DNA of 21,299 nucleotides from a virus. A program made the position numbers and the translations under genes. The stretch is taken from positions 1-21,299 of the IMG/VR virus record IMGVR_UViG_3300017769_000158. The stretch is one strand, 5' to 3'. Positions within the stretch are counted from its first letter, which is position 1. Every line of letters begins with the position of its first letter. Shown piece after piece: positions 2,917 to 21,169 of this stretch. The notes beneath the pieces were generated by a model. The model was not told the DNA's origin and searched no databases. It saw only the letters and a program-made list of their open reading frames with translations.

Positions 2917-3741
2917 ATGGCTACGCAAATTACTAATGCGTTTATTAAGCAGTTTGAAGCCGAAGTCCACATGGCTTACCAAAGGATGGGTTCTAAACTG
3001 CGTAATACTGTGCGCCAATCAAATAATATTACAGGCAACCAAGCAAGATTCCAAAAGGTTGGGAAAGGTGCCGCGTCTACTAAATCTAGACACGGACAAG
3101 TCAACACAATGGAAGTTACACACTCAAACGTAGATGTTACATTAGCTGATTACTATGCTGCTGACTATGTCGATGCATTAGATCAACTAAAAACAAACAT
3201 TGACGAAAGACAAGTGTTGGCTACATCTGCTGCGGCTGCTTTAGGAAGAAAAATGGACTCATTGATTATTGATGTCCTTGACGCTGGATCTAACTCAGCA
3301 AACATTGTTCATGGATCAGCTGCTTTAACATTAGCTAAAGCACTAACTGTGTATGAAACGTTTGGTGAAGCTGATGTTCCAGATGATGGACAAAGATACT
3401 TCGTTGTGTCTTCTCAAGGCTGGGCTGATTTACTACAAATAGATCAATTCAGTAGAGCAGAATATGTGGGTGAAACAGACTTACCATATGCTGGCGGTAT
3501 GACTGCTAAGCGTTGGTTAGGTTTCTTATGGTTCAGCCACTCAGGACTGTCTAAATCTAGTACCACTAGAGATTGTCATGCTTACCACTCAAGTGCAGTA
3601 GGTTTGGCAACTGGTTCAGATGTAAGAACAGAAATTAACTATGTACCTGAAAAGGTCAGTAACTTGATTACGTCATACTTTAGTGCTGGAGCTGTCATGA
3701 TTGACAACGATGGCGCAATTGAATGTCAGATCACAGAATAA
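2917..3741 (+). CDS. Major capsid protein
   Basis: This 274-residue protein follows scaffold and the gp13-like gene, and is preceded by a strong ribosome site, as expected for the coat subunit. It begins 'MATQITNAFIKQFEAEVHMAYQRMGSKLRNTVR', a helical N-arm typical of short podovirus coats. A basic stretch rich in Lys, Gly and Ser follows (about residues 45-60), then 'VDVTLADYYAADYVDALDQLKTNID' and a helix with 'AALGRKMDSLIIDVL' that corresponds to the spine-helix region of HK97-fold coats. A C-terminal strand set holds 'TEINYVPEKVSNLITSYFSAGAVMID', where coats usually have their P-domain strands. It is clearly shorter than T7 gp10A (about 345 aa) and belongs to the compact coat group seen in marine podoviruses. 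The HK97 fold is inferred from family knowledge; the role is well supported by context. Confidence 0.9.
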   Translation: MATQITNAFIKQFEAEVHMAYQRMGSKLRNTVRQSNNITGNQARFQKVGKGAASTKSRHGQVNTMEVTHSNVDVTLADYYAADYVDALDQLKTNIDERQVLATSAAAALGRKMDSLIIDVLDAGSNSANIVHGSAALTLAKALTVYETFGEADVPDDGQRYFVVSSQGWADLLQIDQFSRAEYVGETDLPYAGGMTAKRWLGFLWFSHSGLSKSSTTRDCHAYHSSAVGLATGSDVRTEINYVPEKVSNLITSYFSAGAVMIDNDGAIECQITE

Positions 3742-4048: not shown

Positions 4049-4660
4049 ATGAGTGATAGTAAATTTGACATATGTAGCAAAGCATTGGTTTTAGTAGGAG
4101 CCAACACTATCACTGCCTTTACGGAAAACACTACTGAGTCAAAAGTAGCTGGACAGTTATATGAAACTACGCTAGAAACAATGTTGACCAGATGTAGATG
4201 GAGATTTTCTTCAACACAGTCTCAGTTATCAAGAAACGCTTCAGAACCTACTGCTAGATTTTCTGCAAAATATGCTGTACCTACTGGAGCATTAATAATA
4301 CATACAGTTACAGTAAGTGATTCTGTTATTGAATATGACAGATATGAAGATTTTTTATATTGTGATGCTTCTGAAAGCGATGTAGTAGTAGCTGATTATA
4401 CATATCAACCCTCAGAGGCTAATTTTCCAGCCTATTTTAAACAAGCCCTAGTCTTTGAGCTAGCATCACTATTTGCTGGAGCAATAGCTAGAAATGATAG
4501 CTTATCTAATCTCTATCAAAATAGAGCAATACAACAAATAGCAATAGCTAAATCTCAAGATTCACAGGCACAAACATCTAGAAGACTCGATGTTGATAAG
4601 TTTAGAACTAGGAGGAACTCAGGAGCTTTAGGAACAATAAAGGCTACTGTTGGCTCATAA
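4049..4660 (+). CDS. Tail tubular protein A (T7 gp11-like)
   Basis: This 203-residue protein is the adaptor or gatekeeper that forms a twelve-fold ring below the portal in T7-like virions and holds the nozzle protein. Family marks are the N-terminal 'FDICSKALVLVGANTITAF', then 'AGQLYETTLETMLTRCRWRFSSTQSQLSR', 'RFSAKYAVPTGAL', and the 'YTYQPSEANFPAYFKQALVFELASLFA' helix region. The length is close to T7 gp11 (196 aa). There is no Shine-Dalgarno sequence before the ATG; the upstream 11 bases are A/T-rich and sit just downstream of the hairpin, so initiation may use an unstructured leader. The stop directly abuts the next start. Confidence is high. Confidence 0.92.
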   Translation: MSDSKFDICSKALVLVGANTITAFTENTTESKVAGQLYETTLETMLTRCRWRFSSTQSQLSRNASEPTARFSAKYAVPTGALIIHTVTVSDSVIEYDRYEDFLYCDASESDVVVADYTYQPSEANFPAYFKQALVFELASLFAGAIARNDSLSNLYQNRAIQQIAIAKSQDSQAQTSRRLDVDKFRTRRNSGALGTIKATVGS

Positions 4661-7141
4661 ATGGGTACACATAGAATACATCAATCCAATTTTAATAAAG
4701 GGGAGCTTGATCCTAAGTTAATATCTAGAACAGACTTAGTGTCTTATGGATCTGGTTTGCAAAAATCTAGAAACACAGTACACACAAATCAAGGACCTGT
4801 TGAAAGAAGAGGTGGTACTTTTTACCGTGCAGACTTAGGAGCAACTACAAGACTTGAATCTTTTATTTTTAGCGGAGATCAAGAATATTTGTTTGCCTTT
4901 CAAAATACTGCATTAAAAATATATTCAACTGCTGGCGTTTTATTACAAACAATAACTTCATGTGCATGGGGAACAGCAGATTTATTTGAGTTAAACTTTA
5001 CACAACAAGCAGACACAATGATTATTGTTCACAAAGATCATGCACCTACAATGATTACAAGAACAGGAGCAACATCTTTTTCTAAATCTGCATTTACATT
5101 TGATGAGAGTGTTAATGGAGAGATGGTTTATCAGCCTTATTTCAAATTTGCTAGCGATACAATTACGCTTGATATTGACTCCGTTACAAAAGGAGATACA
5201 AACGTTACATGTACTACATCTGCTGATTATTTTACATCAGACTATGTTGGTACCAGAATACGATATATGGGTGCAGAATTGCTTGTTACAGCCTATACAA
5301 ACGCTACTACAGTTACAGCAACACTAAAATCTGTTCCAATAGTAGAGTTAGACGAAGATCCATTTGCAACATCAGCTGGTAGTGCAATAGTAGTTGTAAC
5401 TCATGTAGCTCATGGATTTAGTACAGGAGCTTCTATAACTATTGCTGGAGCAGAATCAATCAATGATGTTGATGGGGCTGGAATTGCTTTTAGTAATCTT
5501 AATGGAGATAGAACAATTACTGTAATTGACGATAATCATTATAAATTTACAACAGGTGGTAGTGATTCAGCAACAGAATCAGTAGATGGAGGAGGTGTAC
5601 GAGTTACTGTATCTGGTCATCCACCCACTAGAAATTGGGATGAACAAGTGTTTTCTGCTGTTAATGGTTTTCCTAGAGCAGTAACGTTTCACGAAAATCG
5701 TTTATTTTTTGGAGGAGTAACGTCTTTACCAGATGGTATACAGGGTAGCAAAGTAGGTTCTTTTTTTAATTTTGATGTAGGAGGCGGAGAAGACATTGAT
5801 TCAGTTCAAGTACAAATTGCTTCTAATGAAATAAACGAAATAAGACATTTAATATCTGGTAAGGTTTTAGAAATATTAACCAATACTTCTGAGTTTTATT
5901 TAAAACCACAAGTATCAAAACCAATAACACCAGCAGATATTCAAATTATTAGACAAACAACCATAGGCGCGCAAGAGAAAGCAATGCCTAGAATATTCGA
6001 TGGAGCTACAATTTACGTACAAACTAATGGAAAAACTGTTAGAGAATATTTGTATAGCTCAAGTTTTGAAGAATTTACTTCTGGAGCTATTAGTCTAGAG
6101 TCAAATCATTTAATTGGAACGCCAACAGATACAGCATTTATTAATGGTATTCCAGATAGAACAGAACAATTTTATTTTGTAGTTAATACAGATGGTACGA
6201 TGGCAGTATATTCTTCTCAAAGAGATCAAAAAATATACGGATGGAACCTTTGGTCAACAGATGGGGTTATAGAATCAGTAGCCTGTACAACGAATTTTGT
6301 TTATGTTTCTGTAAAAAGAACCATAAATAGTGCAACTGTTTATTACTTAGAGCAGTTTGCATCAACATCTTTCGATATACCAACAGACATGACCGTAACT
6401 AAAACATTGTCTGGGAGCTACCAACCACATGGGTCCCCCTTGACCAACGGAACAACGAGTAGCTCCACCGGTGTAATTGTTGATGGATTTACTAATGCTC
6501 CCTCAGTAGGAGAAAAATTTACTTTTGCTGGTAATGCAACAGTATATACTATAAATGCATCATCAGCGACATCAAACTCTGGTGAATACAGCCTAACTCT
6601 TAATGCTGCGGTCAGCACATCTAATGATGTGGCTCTTACCTTTACTACTTCTAAAACATGGTCAGGATTAAATGCTACTCCAGATATGAGAGGATTAACG
6701 GTACACGGAACATCTGGATCAACAGAGGGTGGAAGCATCAATTACTTTGGCGATGGAACTGTTACAAGCGGAGGTGTTGTAGTTTTAGATAGCCCAACAT
6801 CAGCTATAGATATTGGTCTTGATTATACTGTTGAGATAAATACTATGCCTGTTGATGGAGTTTTAAGACAATCGTTAGGCGCTGCACCATTAACAAATTT
6901 GCCAAGAAAGATAGCAAAAACTATACTTGAATTATCTAGCAGTTATAATATCAAAGTAAATAGTACAGATGTTTTGATAGGAACTGTATCAAACTTAGAT
7001 ACCTCAGCATCTTTAACAGCTTTTACAGGAAAAAAATCAGTATTTTTTTTAGGATATGATGACGAACCTTTTTTAACAATTACTCAATCAGCACCTTTAC
7101 CTCTTAGGATTTTAGGTATAACAACGGAGATTTATTTTTAA
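4661..7141 (+). CDS. Tail tubular protein B (T7 gp12-like nozzle)
   Basis: This 826-residue protein is the tail nozzle, normally a hexamer extending the tail tube. The N-terminus 'HQSNFNKGELDPKLISRTDLVSYGSGLQKSRNTVHTNQGPVERRGGT' is the classic gp12-type start. Further family motifs are 'RAVTFHENRLFFGG' near residue 340 and 'EILTNTSEFYL' followed by 'QTTIGA' near residues 405-435. An insertion at about residues 235-315 has the pattern 'VTHVAHGFSTGASITIAGA...LNGDRTITVIDDNHYKFTTGG', the beta module that annotation pipelines label E1-FCCH-like in phage tail proteins. A second extra beta-rich region (about 585-760) precedes the conserved C-terminal 'RILGITTEIYF'. The start abuts the preceding stop without a ribosome site, and the stop overlaps the next ATG by one base. 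Length is near T7 gp12 (794 aa). Confidence 0.92.
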   Translation: MGTHRIHQSNFNKGELDPKLISRTDLVSYGSGLQKSRNTVHTNQGPVERRGGTFYRADLGATTRLESFIFSGDQEYLFAFQNTALKIYSTAGVLLQTITSCAWGTADLFELNFTQQADTMIIVHKDHAPTMITRTGATSFSKSAFTFDESVNGEMVYQPYFKFASDTITLDIDSVTKGDTNVTCTTSADYFTSDYVGTRIRYMGAELLVTAYTNATTVTATLKSVPIVELDEDPFATSAGSAIVVVTHVAHGFSTGASITIAGAESINDVDGAGIAFSNLNGDRTITVIDDNHYKFTTGGSDSATESVDGGGVRVTVSGHPPTRNWDEQVFSAVNGFPRAVTFHENRLFFGGVTSLPDGIQGSKVGSFFNFDVGGGEDIDSVQVQIASNEINEIRHLISGKVLEILTNTSEFYLKPQVSKPITPADIQIIRQTTIGAQEKAMPRIFDGATIYVQTNGKTVREYLYSSSFEEFTSGAISLESNHLIGTPTDTAFINGIPDRTEQFYFVVNTDGTMAVYSSQRDQKIYGWNLWSTDGVIESVACTTNFVYVSVKRTINSATVYYLEQFASTSFDIPTDMTVTKTLSGSYQPHGSPLTNGTTSSSTGVIVDGFTNAPSVGEKFTFAGNATVYTINASSATSNSGEYSLTLNAAVSTSNDVALTFTTSKTWSGLNATPDMRGLTVHGTSGSTEGGSINYFGDGTVTSGGVVVLDSPTSAIDIGLDYTVEINTMPVDGVLRQSLGAAPLTNLPRKIAKTILELSSSYNIKVNSTDVLIGTVSNLDTSASLTAFTGKKSVFFLGYDDEPFLTITQSAPLPLRILGITTEIYF
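6414..6466 (+). other. GC-rich potential RNA structure within the nozzle gene
   Basis: GGAGCTA at 6414-6420 is complementary to TAGCTCC at 6460-6466, and GGTC at 6432-6435 can pair with GACC at 6442-6445 inside. The stretch uses C- and G-ending codons that are unusual in this A/T-biased gene (CCC, ACC, GGG). It encodes a Gly/Ser/Pro/Thr linker just before the second beta region of the nozzle protein. It may mark a module junction or a structured mRNA segment; no function can be assigned. Confidence 0.3.
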
Positions 7142-18127: not shown

Positions 18128-19180
18128 ATGGCATTTACAACAATAGCAAAACCATCAGTACATTTTGACTGTCCTACATGGACAGGAAGTGATAGCACAA
18201 CAACAATTACTGGAATGGGTTTTAAACCTGATGCTCTTTGGATTAAAAGATATGATGGTGCTGGAAACCCTGTATTCAACAATTCATCAGATGGTGTTGC
18301 TAAGAATTGGTCGCCTGATGGAAACAATACTGTTGATACAACAACTTATGTAGCAAGTTATACCTCAGATGGATTTACTCTGACAGGGAATATAGCAAAT
18401 ACCAATGATGCTAGTAATAAATATGTAGCAGCTTGTTGGAAAGCAAATGGTGGTACTACTGCATCAAATTCTGATGGCAGTATTACTTCAACAATCCAAG
18501 CAAACACAACTGCTGGTGTATCAGTATTGCAATGGACTGGCACAGGTGCAAATGGCACGATTGGGCATGGTCTTGGAGTAGCTCCTAAGTTAGTTATTAT
18601 AAAATCTACTGGTACTGCTGATAGAGGAGAACTGTTAAATATGGGCAAAACTTTTATTACTGACCCTGAAACCGATATGATACAGTTTGCGACAACAGGC
18701 ACTCTTACAGATGTAGCAGAAGCTTGGAATGACACAGCACCAACATCTAGTGTTATTTCTATAGGCTCATCTGCTCTTGGTAATGCAAGTGGTCAAGCAT
18801 GTATCGGATATGCTTTTGCAGAAATTCAAGGATTTAGCAAAATTGGATATTATTCAGGCACAGGTAATGCTCAAGGAACTAAAGTTTATTGTGGCTTTAG
18901 ACCTAAATGGATAATGATTAAAAGCACAACAACAGGAGATAATTTTAATTCTAGAGTATCAGGTTTGACAGGTTATGGATTAGGTGGAGAAAGAACAAGA
19001 AATATTAATCTTAATAATAATGAGTCTAATGCAGAGGGTACTATTCAGTTTGAAAGTAATGGATTTAGAATGGCATCAACATCTACTGCAAACAATCAAG
19101 AAAATACAAAATATTTATACATGGCTTTTGCTGAAATGCCAATGGTCGGAACTAACGGAACAATAGCACTAGCAACATGA
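18128..19180 (+). CDS. Tail adhesin with about three repeats (DUF7483-like)
   Basis: This 350-residue protein is made of about three related beta-rich units of roughly 100 residues. Unit starts are 'GMGFKPDALWIKRYDG' (about 28), 'GLGVAPKLVIIKSTG' (about 148) and 'YCGFRPKWIMIKSTTTGDN' (about 257). Unit ends are 'YVAACWKANGG', 'IGYAFAEIQGFSKIGYYSGTG' and 'YLYMAFAEMPM'. This pattern (GF-P-x-[LW]-[VI]-x-IK ... YAFAE-x-x-G-x-S-x-x-GxYxGxG) is common in marine phage tail genes and I associate it with DUF7483; the accession is from memory. It follows the LamG/SPRY gene with a clear AGGAG about eight bases before the ATG, so it has its own translation signal. The TGA overlaps the ATG of a small membrane gene (ATGA). 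A role in host binding is inferred from position and fold type. Confidence 0.75.
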   Translation: MAFTTIAKPSVHFDCPTWTGSDSTTTITGMGFKPDALWIKRYDGAGNPVFNNSSDGVAKNWSPDGNNTVDTTTYVASYTSDGFTLTGNIANTNDASNKYVAACWKANGGTTASNSDGSITSTIQANTTAGVSVLQWTGTGANGTIGHGLGVAPKLVIIKSTGTADRGELLNMGKTFITDPETDMIQFATTGTLTDVAEAWNDTAPTSSVISIGSSALGNASGQACIGYAFAEIQGFSKIGYYSGTGNAQGTKVYCGFRPKWIMIKSTTTGDNFNSRVSGLTGYGLGGERTRNINLNNNESNAEGTIQFESNGFRMASTSTANNQENTKYLYMAFAEMPMVGTNGTIALAT

Positions 19181-19338
19181 AAGTAACTAACGAACAATTA
19201 ATGGATAAACTAGAGAAGATGGATCAAAGGATCGTTGCTCTAGAAGAATTTATGCACAGAAGCAAAGGTTCTGTATCTATAATAGCATGGCTAGCTGGAC
19301 TAGCTGTCGTAGTGGGAGGCTATTTCTATAACAAATGA
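19177..19338 (+). CDS. Small coiled-coil/TM protein (XhlA-like, holin candidate)
   Basis: This 53-residue ORF begins at the ATGA overlap with the adhesin stop. Its N-terminal half (MKVTNEQLMDKLEKMDQRIVAL, abbreviated) is an amphipathic helix with a heptad pattern, and residues about 33-50 are one hydrophobic segment (SIIAWLAGLAVVVGGYFY) ending in Asn-Lys. A short coiled coil followed by one C-terminal membrane helix is the plan of haemolysin XhlA-type proteins that occur in phage lysis cassettes. Its own stop overlaps the start of the next membrane gene by another ATGA. A tail-anchored holin or holin regulator is the likeliest role, but a virion membrane protein is possible. Confidence 0.72.
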   Translation: MKVTNEQLMDKLEKMDQRIVALEEFMHRSKGSVSIIAWLAGLAVVVGGYFYNK

Positions 19339-19766
19339 TACCAATGGAACTTATATCAATGCTCGGCTCTACTGTACTAGGTGGTGTTATGTCTATCATG
19401 GCACAGAAAGGACAGGCTGAAGCAGAGAAACAAAAGTTATTAATGCAACGTGCTGGGTTTGCAGCTAAACAAACTGACAAAGCCAGAGATGTTAAAGATG
19501 CTCACACCAAACATACCAGACGATGGATAGCATTGATGTGTGTATTCTCTATCATTGTTGTACCTATCATCGCACCTATCTTTACTGACGTTAATGTTAT
19601 CTATCAGGTAATGCAAGAGGTTGACTCTGGCTGGTGGATCTTTGGATCAAGCTATGAAACTTCAGTATGGAAAGAGGGTAACTCAATATTTATAACGAGC
19701 CTTCAATCTCATACAATTTTTTCAATCATTGGGTTGTATTTTGGTGGCTCATTAACTAGGAAATAA
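19335..19766 (+). CDS. Multi-TM membrane protein, holin-like
   Basis: This 143-residue protein shows a weakly hydrophobic N-terminal helix (residues 4-22, 'MELISMLGSTVLGGVMSIM'), and a basic amphipathic helix (about 24-60) rich in Lys, Gln and Ala. It then has a strong membrane helix (about 64-84, 'WIALMCVFSIIVVPIIAPIF') and a last hydrophobic segment (about 125-140, 'TIFSIIGLYFGGSL') before 'TRK'. The plan resembles the 3TM holins of gene transfer agents and marine phages. The first ATG (19335) forms an ATGA overlap with the 53-aa gene; ATG 19344 is an alternative start, but neither has a ribosome site. Paired with the preceding small membrane protein it would make a lysis pair, though no endolysin is visible nearby. 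Membrane location is secure, holin activity is inference. Confidence 0.72.
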   Translation: MIPMELISMLGSTVLGGVMSIMAQKGQAEAEKQKLLMQRAGFAAKQTDKARDVKDAHTKHTRRWIALMCVFSIIVVPIIAPIFTDVNVIYQVMQEVDSGWWIFGSSYETSVWKEGNSIFITSLQSHTIFSIIGLYFGGSLTRK

Positions 19767-19767
19767 T

Positions 19768-19914
19768 ATGGCTAAGTTATGTGCAAGAGGTAAAGCAGCA
19801 GCGATTAGAAAGTTTAAGAAGTACCCATCGGCTTATGCAAACATGTATGCAGCTGGGGTATGTTCTGGAAGAATTAAACCCGGAGGCAAGAAGAGTGGCA
19901 AAAAAAGGTCTTAA
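19768..19914 (+). CDS. 48-aa basic two-cysteine protein
   Basis: The ORF starts one base after the preceding stop (TAATATG) and encodes MAKLCARGKAAAIRKFKKY-type sequence: an Ala/Lys-rich N-terminus, a 'YPSAYANMYAAGVCSGRIK' segment, and a Lys/Gly tail ending KKSGKKRS. It has two cysteines (C5, C32) and is strongly basic. I recognise the K-F-x-x-Y-P-S-A-Y-A-N pattern as one found in small proteins of marine viruses, but know no function. The gene is supported by its tight spacing and by the family-like motif. It overlaps the next gene by 20 bases. Confidence 0.68.
   Translation: MAKLCARGKAAAIRKFKKYPSAYANMYAAGVCSGRIKPGGKKSGKKRS
19882..19886 (+). promoter_or_regulatory. Ribosome site selecting a GTG start at 19895
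   Basis: GGAGG lies inside the 48-aa gene, eight bases before GTG 19895. It supports the GTG as the true start of the next gene in place of the long in-frame extension to 19781, whose translation is unrelated to the conserved part and covers the 48-aa gene. Confidence 0.7.
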
Positions 19915-20134
19915 AGAATGGGTTAAAGAAAAATGGGTAGACATAGGCGCTCCTAAAAAGAATGGCAAGTTTCAACCATGCGGTAGAAAGAAAGGAGATG
20001 GTCGTGCTTACCCTAAGTGTGTACCATTAGCTAAGGCTAATGCTATGACATCAGCTCAAAGATCAGCGGCAGTCAGGAGAAAACGTGCAAAGAACAATTC
20101 AACAAAAGGTAAACCAAGTTATGCGAGGACTTAA
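19895..20134 (+). CDS. 79-aa basic protein with W-V-K-E-K-W-V-D motif
   Basis: Starting from GTG 19895, the protein reads MAKKGLKEWVKEKWVDIG, then 'KNGKFQPCGRKKGDGRAYPKCVPLAKA', then 'MTSAQRSAAVRRKRAKNN' and a Lys/Pro-rich end. It is very basic and carries two cysteines (C29, C42) around a Gly/Arg/Lys loop. The 'GLKxWxxEKWVD' start and 'PCGR...YPKCVPLAKA' core occur in small proteins of marine phages and of large DNA viruses (possibly the DUF5872 group, from memory). A nucleic-acid or basic scaffold role is suggested by charge only. The start rests on the GGAGG eight bases upstream. The stop is one base from a tiny ORF (TAATATG). Confidence 0.72.
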   Translation: MAKKGLKEWVKEKWVDIGAPKKNGKFQPCGRKKGDGRAYPKCVPLAKANAMTSAQRSAAVRRKRAKNNSTKGKPSYART

Positions 20135-20135
20135 T

Positions 20136-20186
20136 ATGAAAAAGAAAACTAAAAAGAAACCAGTAAAAAAATATCCGGGATATTAA
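20136..20186 (+). CDS. 16-aa lysine-rich micro-ORF
   Basis: The ORF encodes MKKKTKKKPVKKYPGY between two basic genes. It is flanked on both sides by the same TAATATG junction (stop, one base, start). Nine of its sixteen residues are lysine. The perfect fit into a tandem of genes with identical junctions suggests that it is translated, but at this length it could also be a spacer, a leader peptide or a remnant. No ribosome site is distinct from the upstream purines. Confidence 0.4.
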   Translation: MKKKTKKKPVKKYPGY

Positions 20187-20187
20187 T

Positions 20188-20334
20188 ATGCTAACAGCAA
20201 AACAGAAGTCTATATTATTAAAACATAAGAAGCATCATTCTTCTAAACATATGAGTCTTATGAAAAAACTTATGAATGATGGTAAGTCTTTTACAGTTGC
20301 ACATAAAATAGCACAGAAAGAAGTAGGAAAATAA
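20188..20334 (+). CDS. 48-aa His/Lys-rich basic protein
   Basis: This ORF encodes MLTAKQKSILLKHKKHHSSK followed by 'HMSLMKKLMNDGKSFTVAHKIAQKEVGK'. The pattern L-T-x-K-Q...H-x-x-H-H-S-x-K-H-M-x-x-M...M-x-x-G-K-x-F-x-x-A-H-x-x-A-x-x-x-V-G-K is one I recognise from short ORFs of marine phages; function unknown. It is predicted to be two helices with five histidines grouped in the first half, and has no cysteine. It starts two bases after the preceding stop's TAA begins the TAATATG junction, and its TAA overlaps the next ATG (TAATG). The family-like pattern makes it a real gene with good confidence. Confidence 0.68.
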   Translation: MLTAKQKSILLKHKKHHSSKHMSLMKKLMNDGKSFTVAHKIAQKEVGK

Positions 20335-20585
20335 TGGTAGCTAAAAAATATCAAAATCCAGATGGTGGTTTAAATGCAGCGGGTAGAGCATACTTTAAAC
20401 GTAAAGATGGATCTAATCTTAAAGCTCCTGTTACAGGTAAAGCACCTAAAGGATCTAAGGCAGCAGCAAGACGTAGAAGTTTTTGTGCTAGAATGTCAGG
20501 TATGAAAGGACCAATGAAAGATAGTAAAGGAAGACCAACAAGAAAAGCCTTAGCATTAAGGAAATGGAAATGTCGCAAGTCGTAG
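20334..20585 (+). CDS. 83-aa basic two-cysteine protein (DUF6321-like)
   Basis: The protein starts with 'PDGGLNAAGRAYFKRKDGSNLKAPV', then a Lys/Gly/Arg-rich loop, then 'RRRSFCARMSGMKGPMKDSKGRPTRKALALRKWKCR'. This matches the small family I know as DUF6321, found in phages and marine viruses: GGLNAxGRxxY...FCARMxGMxGP...D-x-G-x-P-T-R-K-A-L-x-L-x-K-W-x-C. Cysteines are at 51 and 80. It is strongly basic with no membrane segment; a nucleic-acid contact or capsid-associated role is possible, but nothing is shown. Start overlaps the previous TAA (TAATG). The 3' end overlaps the next gene, whose ribosome site lies inside it. Confidence 0.78.
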   Translation: MVAKKYQNPDGGLNAAGRAYFKRKDGSNLKAPVTGKAPKGSKAAARRRSFCARMSGMKGPMKDSKGRPTRKALALRKWKCRKS

Positions 20586-21169
20586 CCAAACAATGCTTAT
20601 GGGTAATGCTGGTTCTAATATTAGTCTATGGTATAGCTGATGCCATAGGAGATGTTACTTCATCTGGCTCAACCACGAATACCCAGTCCAACAACGCTGG
20701 TTCAAACACAGCAATCACAGGCGGATATGAGTCAGCAACCACATATCAGTCAGGCTCATCTTCCAATAGTACTACAAACAATGAGACCAACAATAGCACC
20801 AACCAGAAAACAGCCGTAAACAGCGCCTCAGCGCCCTCTATGAGCGTATATGGACAGGACTCTTGTGTCATACCATTGGCATCTGGGGTTACAATCATAG
20901 GATTTAGTGGTTCATTTGGCACATACGTGACGGACAAATCGTGTGAACGTAGAAAATCTATAGCTGTATTAGCTAAACTTGGCATGAAAGTGGCGGCAAT
21001 TAGTCTTGCCTGTCAAGATGAAAACATCTGGCAAGCAATGATGGATGCGGGTACACCATGCCCTATAGATGGATTGATTGGAGATAAAGCTAAAGCTAGA
21101 TGGATGCAGAAACGTAAAGAAACATTAAGGAATACTACGGCTAAACCTAGTATGACATGGAATGATTAG
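20570..21169 (+). CDS. Exported Ser/Thr/Asn-rich protein with four-cysteine C-terminal domain
   Basis: I cannot name this 199-residue protein. Residues 8-24 are a hydrophobic signal sequence or anchor (CLWVMLVLILVYGIADA), with a possible cleavage site after ADA. Residues 29-88 are a Ser/Thr/Asn/Gly/Gln-rich, probably disordered linker using more C-ending codons than its neighbours. The C-terminal domain has cysteines at 99, 125, 148 and 164 and the pattern 'CERRKSIAVLAKLGMKVAAISLACQD...AMMDAGTPCPIDGLIG', known to me from unnamed marine phage proteins; two disulfides would fit a periplasmic or surface location. ATG 20570 is preferred because AAGG at 20558-20561 is eight bases upstream; ATG 20564 would add two residues. 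The stop overlaps the following lipoprotein by eight bases. Candidate roles are a spanin-like lysis protein or an exposed virion/host-surface protein. Confidence 0.72.
   Translation: MSQVVAKQCLWVMLVLILVYGIADAIGDVTSSGSTTNTQSNNAGSNTAITGGYESATTYQSGSSSNSTTNNETNNSTNQKTAVNSASAPSMSVYGQDSCVIPLASGVTIIGFSGSFGTYVTDKSCERRKSIAVLAKLGMKVAAISLACQDENIWQAMMDAGTPCPIDGLIGDKAKARWMQKRKETLRNTTAKPSMTWND

Follow-up and report, generated by a model that had tools for sequence, protein, structure and literature searches.

What are five tiny, strongly basic genes doing in a row near the end of a viral sequence, and do their products work together? The window analysed here is the whole 21,299-nucleotide stretch of virus record IMGVR_UViG_3300017769_000158, and the tandem run in question (19768-20585, plus strand) comprises ORFs of 48, 79, 16, 48 and 83 aa. 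We refer to the first 48-aa protein as D1, the 79-aa protein as D2, the second 48-aa protein as D4 and the 83-aa protein as D3. D1 (19768-19914), which carries a PSAYA motif, starts at ATG, has cysteines C5 and C32 and a net charge of +14. It overlaps by 20 b with D2 (19895-20134), which starts at a GTG with GGAGG upstream and has cysteines C29 and C42 and a net charge of +19. The Lys-rich mini-ORF of 16 aa (20136-20186), half of which is Lys or Arg (net +8), is flanked by TAATATG junctions, one with the 79-aa ORF and one with the second 48-aa ORF. D4 (20188-20334) is Lys/His-rich, with five His, no Cys and a net charge of +10, and meets D3 (20334-20585; C51/C80; net +22) at a TAATG junction. 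Recomputed from the sequence, the sizes, junctions and overlaps, the Lys/Arg-richness of all five (net +8 to +22), the two cysteines each of D1, D2 and D3 and the His-richness of the other 48-aa member are all as described in the initial annotation.

The run has no sharp border, because the 143-aa gene directly upstream of D1 (g143, 19335-19766, plus strand) ends in the same TAATATG and a 201-aa gene (g201, 20564-21169, plus strand) overlaps the end of D3. Both lie outside the basic set. The hydrophobic segments of g143 suggest a membrane protein. In relatives, g143 often sits upstream of D3, and g201 is the downstream neighbour in several of them. A DUF7483 protein (18128-19180, E 1.1e-77) is encoded further upstream of the cassette and precedes D3 in some relatives. 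Basicity is special to the cassette, as the 18 other window genes that were computed span a net charge per residue of only -0.095 to +0.046. For relatives at 70-99% protein identity, dN/dS was 0.02-0.14 in all listed pairs with unsaturated dS, including 0.02-0.05 for D1 where computable and 0.08-0.11 for D4 in two comparisons. By this measure, D1, D2, D3 and D4 are under strong purifying selection. A 14-codon version of the 16-aa ORF is found in contigs L084 and L085, with identical C-terminal residues and junction.

Profile searches placed the four longer proteins in families. D3 is a clear member of DUF6321 (PF19846; 97.8 bits, cut-off 28.5). D1 and D4 match the unnamed PHROGs phrog_27331 (E 1.7e-21) and phrog_31838 (E 2.9e-9), respectively, and a D4 homologue is present in phage P-SCSP2. 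D2 matches phrog_23735 (E 9.7e-28). It scores 14.7 bits against DUF5872 (PF19197; E 0.049), under the curated cut-off of 27.5 bits, which its P-SCSP2 homologue exceeds with 53.3 bits. As profile comparison of D2 with DUF5872-type sequences gave a probability of 98%, D2 is, by these scores, a distant relative of DUF5872. The same type of comparison ruled out that D1 and D2 are mutual relatives (probability 0.09%). The profiles built here had zero matches to the reversed sequences of 47661 ORFs. In 50,697 records of annotated phages, at the limits used, D3 was found 544 times, D2 eight times, D1 six times and D4 not at all, and the phages with D3 have very different hosts. Among 15 bacterial or metagenome-assembled genome (MAG) contigs from a D3 scan of genomes, 13 contained D3, one contained D2 and D3 by profile, and one contained neither.

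We examined how these families are linked in other loci. D2 lies at most 449 b downstream of D1 on the same strand in 77/80 loci fetched with D1, and D1 lies at most 600 b upstream of D2 in 79/80 loci fetched with D2, although the loci do not count as independent cases (22 distinct D1 sequences; 130 distinct contexts among the 160 loci). The three D1 loci without D2 are on contigs that end 23-164 b past D1, and the single D2 locus without D1 starts 184 b before D2. D1 and D2 thus appear to be an almost obligate pair. D3 is present in 34/80 D1-fetched loci. The 80 loci fetched with D3 contained D1 in only 9 cases, D2 in 10 and D4 in 5, so that D3 is far more widespread than D1 and D2 and usually occurs without both. 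When the capsid protein of the window was used as query, D3 was found in 13 of the 80 loci, D2 in three, D1 in two and D4 in one. These loci reach 10 kb and would therefore miss a cassette placed as in the window, 17 kb downstream from the capsid gene.

The order D1-D2-D4-D3 was found only in the window and in contigs L002 and L003, whose D1 is 100% identical. P-SCSP2 has all four families in a different order, together with a fifth small gene, between its scaffold and capsid genes. As the exact order is rare, we rejected the five-gene order as a fixed unit. The unlinked occurrence that would speak against a common role was absent for D1 and D2 and partly holds for D3 and D4. The initial suggestion that the proteins work together is thus supported for D1 and D2, by their linkage in both directions, and by fusions of D1, D2 and D3 (see below), while D3 and D4 are partly independent. 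Two further small genes were observed in these surroundings. A 41-aa gene within the P-SCSP2 cassette (L087:4174-4299) resembles a single EF-hand loop, just under the Pfam cut-off. A basic module, RGLYANIHAKRKR (phrog_16028), adjoins or is fused to DUF6321 and was seen in 21/80 D3-fetched loci (examples are L090:4852-5001 in HTVC168P, L107, L132, L176 and L177).

In T4-like cyanophages, the modules are found on one polypeptide. An 880-aa protein of ACG-2014f, encoded between the terminase genes, begins with D2, has D1 in its middle, ends with D3 and contains a further module, D6. P-SSM2 gp114 (271 aa), which directly precedes the small terminase gene, contains D2, D1, D6 and D3. D6 is a two-Cys module with a CWxGY motif that occurs in cyanomyophage fusions, sometimes twice. 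Both of its cysteines are present in all 33 distinct aligned sequences (e.g., L094, L095, L097, L099 and L119). Comparison of the fused and separate profiles gave a probability of 97% for D2 and 90% for D1, the latter over a common core of only 18 columns. At least two different modules on one ORF were found in 35/80 cyanomyophage loci, in 5/13 named reference loci (all five from cyanomyophages), in 2/15 genome contigs and in 1/80 D2-fetched loci, where a stop-to-stop frame contains D1 and D2. No module fusions were found in the D1-fetched, D3-fetched or capsid-fetched loci. Members of DUF6321 also occur within other longer proteins, and DUF6321-like folds were seen on uncultured phage proteins labelled Ferritin/DPS (679 aa, BFVD A0A6J5N5R9) and AAA domain (1143 aa, A0A6J5R4H4).

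The family of the T4-type prohead protease, S77, was found in 9/11 cyanomyophage records and in 0/15 non-cyanomyophage records, which included the window relatives L359 and L362 (the record of the window itself, which is partial, was outside this set). The protease family S78 was found in 0/26 records. An association of fusion with the protease agrees with these counts, which kinship may explain equally well. In 38 distinct fused ORFs, we counted protease-like sites, allowing L, I, V or M before X-E, that lie at most 14 residues upstream of a module. Such sites preceded D1 in 19/29 cases (shuffled mean 5.1), D2 in 10/30 (3.0), D3 in 25/37 (8.1), D5 in 5/7 (1.7) and D6 in 19/40 (6.8).

The N-termini provide a second parallel with T4. 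T4 IPII and IPIII carry the known ten-residue targeting peptide at the N-terminus in the T4 record; residues 4 and 7 of this peptide matter for targeting, and gp21 cuts after L/I-X-E (excerpts of PMC3012670 and PMC9026906). Short cyanomyophage forms of our modules begin with a T4-like capsid-targeting peptide. A start resembling the T4 capsid-targeting sequence together with a cleavage-like site was found in 23/65 distinct cyanomyophage D3 ORFs with a complete 5' end (four truncated ones were left out) versus 7/907 other ORFs of at least 80 codons from the same loci, a comparison that is descriptive only, as the sequences are related and the pattern was written only after the cyanophage N-termini had been viewed. 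The capsid-targeting peptide is absent from the window proteins, which start with MAKLC, (V)AKKG, MLTAK and MVAKK. T4-like targeting starts were also seen in other genes near the terminase, namely S-CREM2 ORF136 (L098:1402-2115), S-SCSM1_30 (L439:8216-8536) and S-SZBM1_191 (L440:14312-14629), suggesting a wider set of putative head-targeted cyanophage proteins.

Next to which genes do the modules lie in other phages? In T7-like and SU10-like relatives, too, they adjoin genes for terminase, portal, scaffold or capsid. All 13 D3 genes in the capsid-fetched loci lie 1.1-3.1 kb upstream of the large terminase gene (TerL), and seven of them lie 162-293 b after a recognised small terminase gene (TerS). 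In L226, TerS was identified by Pfam, and the gene that we take to be TerL, which had no Pfam match at E 0.01, was named from its position and GSGKS motif. Further small, very basic genes of L226 lie between TerS, D3 and TerL (2992-3183 and 4416-4814), and its 132-aa basic protein is DUF5872-like by eye, with no Pfam match at E 0.01. In the 80 cyanomyophage D3 loci, the order TerS-D3-TerL was found 33 times, TerS only 20 times, TerL only 14 times, neither 11 times and another arrangement twice. The 80 D3-fetched loci were more varied. The order scaffold-D3-capsid was found in ten, and also in HTVC168P and P-SCSP2. Three had a capsid gene at most 3.5 kb downstream with no scaffold match, six had a portal or capsid gene elsewhere, in 19 the sole match was a homologue of g143 or the DUF7483 gene, which lay upstream in 18, and six were classified as other. 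The core genes that we sought were absent from the remaining 36, which counts against a location in the head interior.

D1 and D2 also have head genes as neighbours. An SU10-like contig (L371) contains, in this order, TerL, an SU10 portal gene, D1-D2 and an SU10 capsid gene. In the 130 distinct contexts, where neighbour names were assigned by eye, the commonest neighbours were a 167-aa protein with hydrophobic stretches (59) and a portal-like protein (35), followed by a longer D2-type protein (34), a GroES-like co-chaperone (30) and a scaffold-like protein (29). The cassette of the window sits after the tail genes and g143, outside the head operon, which also counts against the head interior. 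In HTVC106P and HTVC023P, cassette genes lie near an M15 peptidase. There are thus at least two recurring niches, among packaging genes and among head genes, and the window represents a third, after tail genes and g143.

The virion proteomes of related phages give a divided picture. S-CREM2 ORF137 contains DUF6321 and was detected in CsCl-purified virions with four unique peptides and only 4.1% coverage; its neighbour ORF136 was detected with eight peptides and 24.1% coverage (PMC10665884, in excerpt). S-SCSM1_29 contains D2, D1, D6 and D3 and is labelled 'virion protein' in its record. We infer that this label comes from the mass spectrometry experiment that identified 45 virion proteins of S-SCSM1 (part of PMC9602691). 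The DUF6321 protein S-SZBM1_192, whose start is targeting-like, is absent from the 30 detected virion proteins in the table of PMC9146016. For S-SM1, 41 virion proteins were detected according to an excerpt of PMC3037559, and its homologue is 'hypothetical' with no structural label, a negative that is taken from the record label. The S-CREM1 virion proteome consists of 14 proteins (PMC9964418, in part). The record of the Syn9 homologue has no structural label. The S-P4 homologue is labelled structural in its record, and we know of no experiment behind this label. Our literature search found no virion data for any T7-like relative. Homologues are thus reported from the particles of two cyanophages (S-CREM2 and S-SCSM1), with three phages without such reports (S-SZBM1, S-SM1 and Syn9). 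As very basic proteins give tiny tryptic peptides, absence from virion proteomics is weak evidence.

The cysteine pairs are highly conserved. Both cysteines are present in 21/22 distinct aligned D1 sequences and in 66/67 distinct D2 sequences, and the remaining row is a gap in each case. In the 174 distinct D3 sequences, 148 have both cysteines, one has only the first and is gapped at the second position, and two have a gap at the first; L021 and L026 are contig-cut rows with a gap. In the other 23, Ala or Leu replaces C51 and no second cysteine aligns, although some of them end at a contig end (at least one, L298; by another count at least three). The complete sequences among the 23 have a different, Gly-containing C-terminus, and one, L322, has cysteines at two other places. 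As Ala or Leu at C51 goes with the lack of an aligned second cysteine, the cysteines of D3 were gained and lost together, which favours a mutual bond, whether a disulfide or a metal link. An AlphaFold2 model of D3 (pLDDT 86.4) has three helices. Comparison of this model with the PDB yielded no match (best E 6.2; none at Z 2 among 18 chains), including no DNA-binding or effector fold, which does not prove a new fold, and a Foldseek search of viral models returned mainly DUF6321 proteins. The model of the four-module fusion was too poor (pLDDT 53), leaving D1 and D2 without a model. Profile and structure searches found no solved-structure relative of D1, D2 or D3. A chemokine stretch (E 0.1) and eS30, the best match among PDB profiles (E 0.27), were not significant and were taken as chance.

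We consider it on balance probable that these are small, DNA-associated proteins of the head interior that resemble the T4 internal proteins in role and are not homologues of them. We place them in the head with the DNA because of their gene neighbourhood, the capsid-targeting-like N-termini and the mass spectrometry reports of fused homologues. Packaging with DNA, which the initial annotation had offered as an example, is now the best-supported reading, with the support coming from homologues rather than the phage of the window, for whose own proteins we infer a virion location by analogy. In the mechanism that we propose, small basic proteins would be built into the head and stay with the packaged DNA. 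D1 and D2 would act as a pair and D3 would be the most frequent component, with D4 and the 16-aa peptide as optional additions. The prohead protease of cyanomyophages may cut the fusions into units that phages without the protease encode separately, and binding to DNA or scaffold may bring the window proteins into the head. Their Lys and Arg residues would neutralise DNA, and each small fold would be locked by its Cys pair through a disulfide or a metal. It is possible, and we propose it only tentatively, that unrelated marine phages (T7-like, SU10-like and T4-like) share a modular toolkit, encoded as separate genes where there is no protease and as a protease-cut polyprotein in T4-like cyanophages. 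Both routes would lead to the same small DNA-bound set, whose disulfide or metal lock may close or open when the particle is released from a cell or infects one.

Several other roles may be considered. The proteins could be accessories of head assembly or DNA packaging that help the terminase or scaffold and for the most part do not remain in the finished particle. This role would fit the place of the genes, which is between TerS and TerL in two lineages of phages and between the scaffold and capsid genes in another, as well as the three of five virion data sets without detection or label. We nevertheless find it rather unlikely, since fusion proteins are reported from purified S-CREM2 and S-SCSM1 virions and the targeting-like N-termini are similar to those found on T4 proteins that remain in the head. 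A role as packaged and injected effectors, acting on host nucleic acid, polymerase or defence nucleases, shares location and targeting with the T4 internal proteins, of which IPI is an injected restriction inhibitor (PMC3012670, in excerpt), and would agree with a module content that differs markedly between phages. However, strong purifying selection and conserved motifs are at odds with the high diversity of T-even internal proteins, as far as the excerpted accounts describe it. D3 moreover occurs in phages of very different hosts, and structure comparisons found no effector fold, making this role unlikely.

A late role in the cytoplasm that has nothing to do with the head, in lysis or on host RNA or ribosomes, seems improbable in view of the head and packaging neighbours in several lineages and the virion reports. 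It draws on the position of the window genes after g143, on the HTVC106P and HTVC023P copies near an M15 peptidase, and on a ribosomal-like composition (small, Lys/Arg-rich; the eS30 match at E 0.27 is not significant). That the ORFs arose by chance or are non-coding has next to no probability. They are very short and lie in a Lys-rich stretch, and the 16-aa ORF by itself might serve as a coupling leader. Selection and family matches refute this explanation for the four longer ORFs, and the dN/dS of 0.02-0.14, the conserved Cys pairs and the lack of reversed-sequence matches all speak against it.

Location in the head interior would have consequences beyond this window. Phages that infect the most abundant bacteria of the ocean carry these families very commonly (DUF6321 in 544/50,697 phage records), and no function is assigned to them. 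Should they prove to be packaged, many small pelagiphage and cyanophage genes annotated as 'unknown' would be candidate genes for the head interior, and T7-like phages would possess DNA-associated internal proteins in addition to the T7 core. The occurrence of polyproteins versus separate genes is a directly testable prediction. The initial annotation saw here an undescribed system, which is too strong, as DUF6321, DUF5872, the PHROGs and T4-GC119 are already catalogued, without function. The families are known by name; of their function, mutual link and polyprotein contrast our literature searches found no account, and for DUF5872 and DUF6321 they turned up a single paper.

How do these proteins compare with known systems? 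The T4 proteins IPI, IPII and IPIII are small, basic and packed with DNA, and gp21 removes their targeting peptide (PMC3012670 and PMC9026906, in excerpt). The likeness lies in the targeting-type starts of part of the cyanomyophage DUF6321 proteins. No sequence relation is apparent; IPII and IPIII as read lack, by eye, the PSAYA, W..W..C..C and DUF6321 signatures, and the window proteins differ in having no targeting peptide. It is only through their basicity that contact of the window proteins with DNA is suggested. In the podovirus T7, the core proteins gp14-16 are internal head proteins. These and the small T7 virion proteins are large or unrelated compared with the small basic proteins of the window, and we know of no Cys-pair basic module among them. 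DUF5872, which has also been named in the haptophyte virus CpV-BQ1 (PMC12085832, in part), resembles D2 in its Trp-rich start and its C-G-R and P-x-C pair, with D2 scoring below the family cut-off. A known counterpart by content is the cyanophage group T4-GC119 (S-SM1_115 and Syn1_112, with homologues Syn9 gp114 and P-SSM2 gp114), which has the same modules near terminase genes. In this group, D2, D1 and D3 are fused, and Syn1_112 is D3 alone. Most T4-GC119 proteins are multi-domain polypeptides that also contain linkers and an additional two-Cys module, whereas the window encodes separate small proteins.
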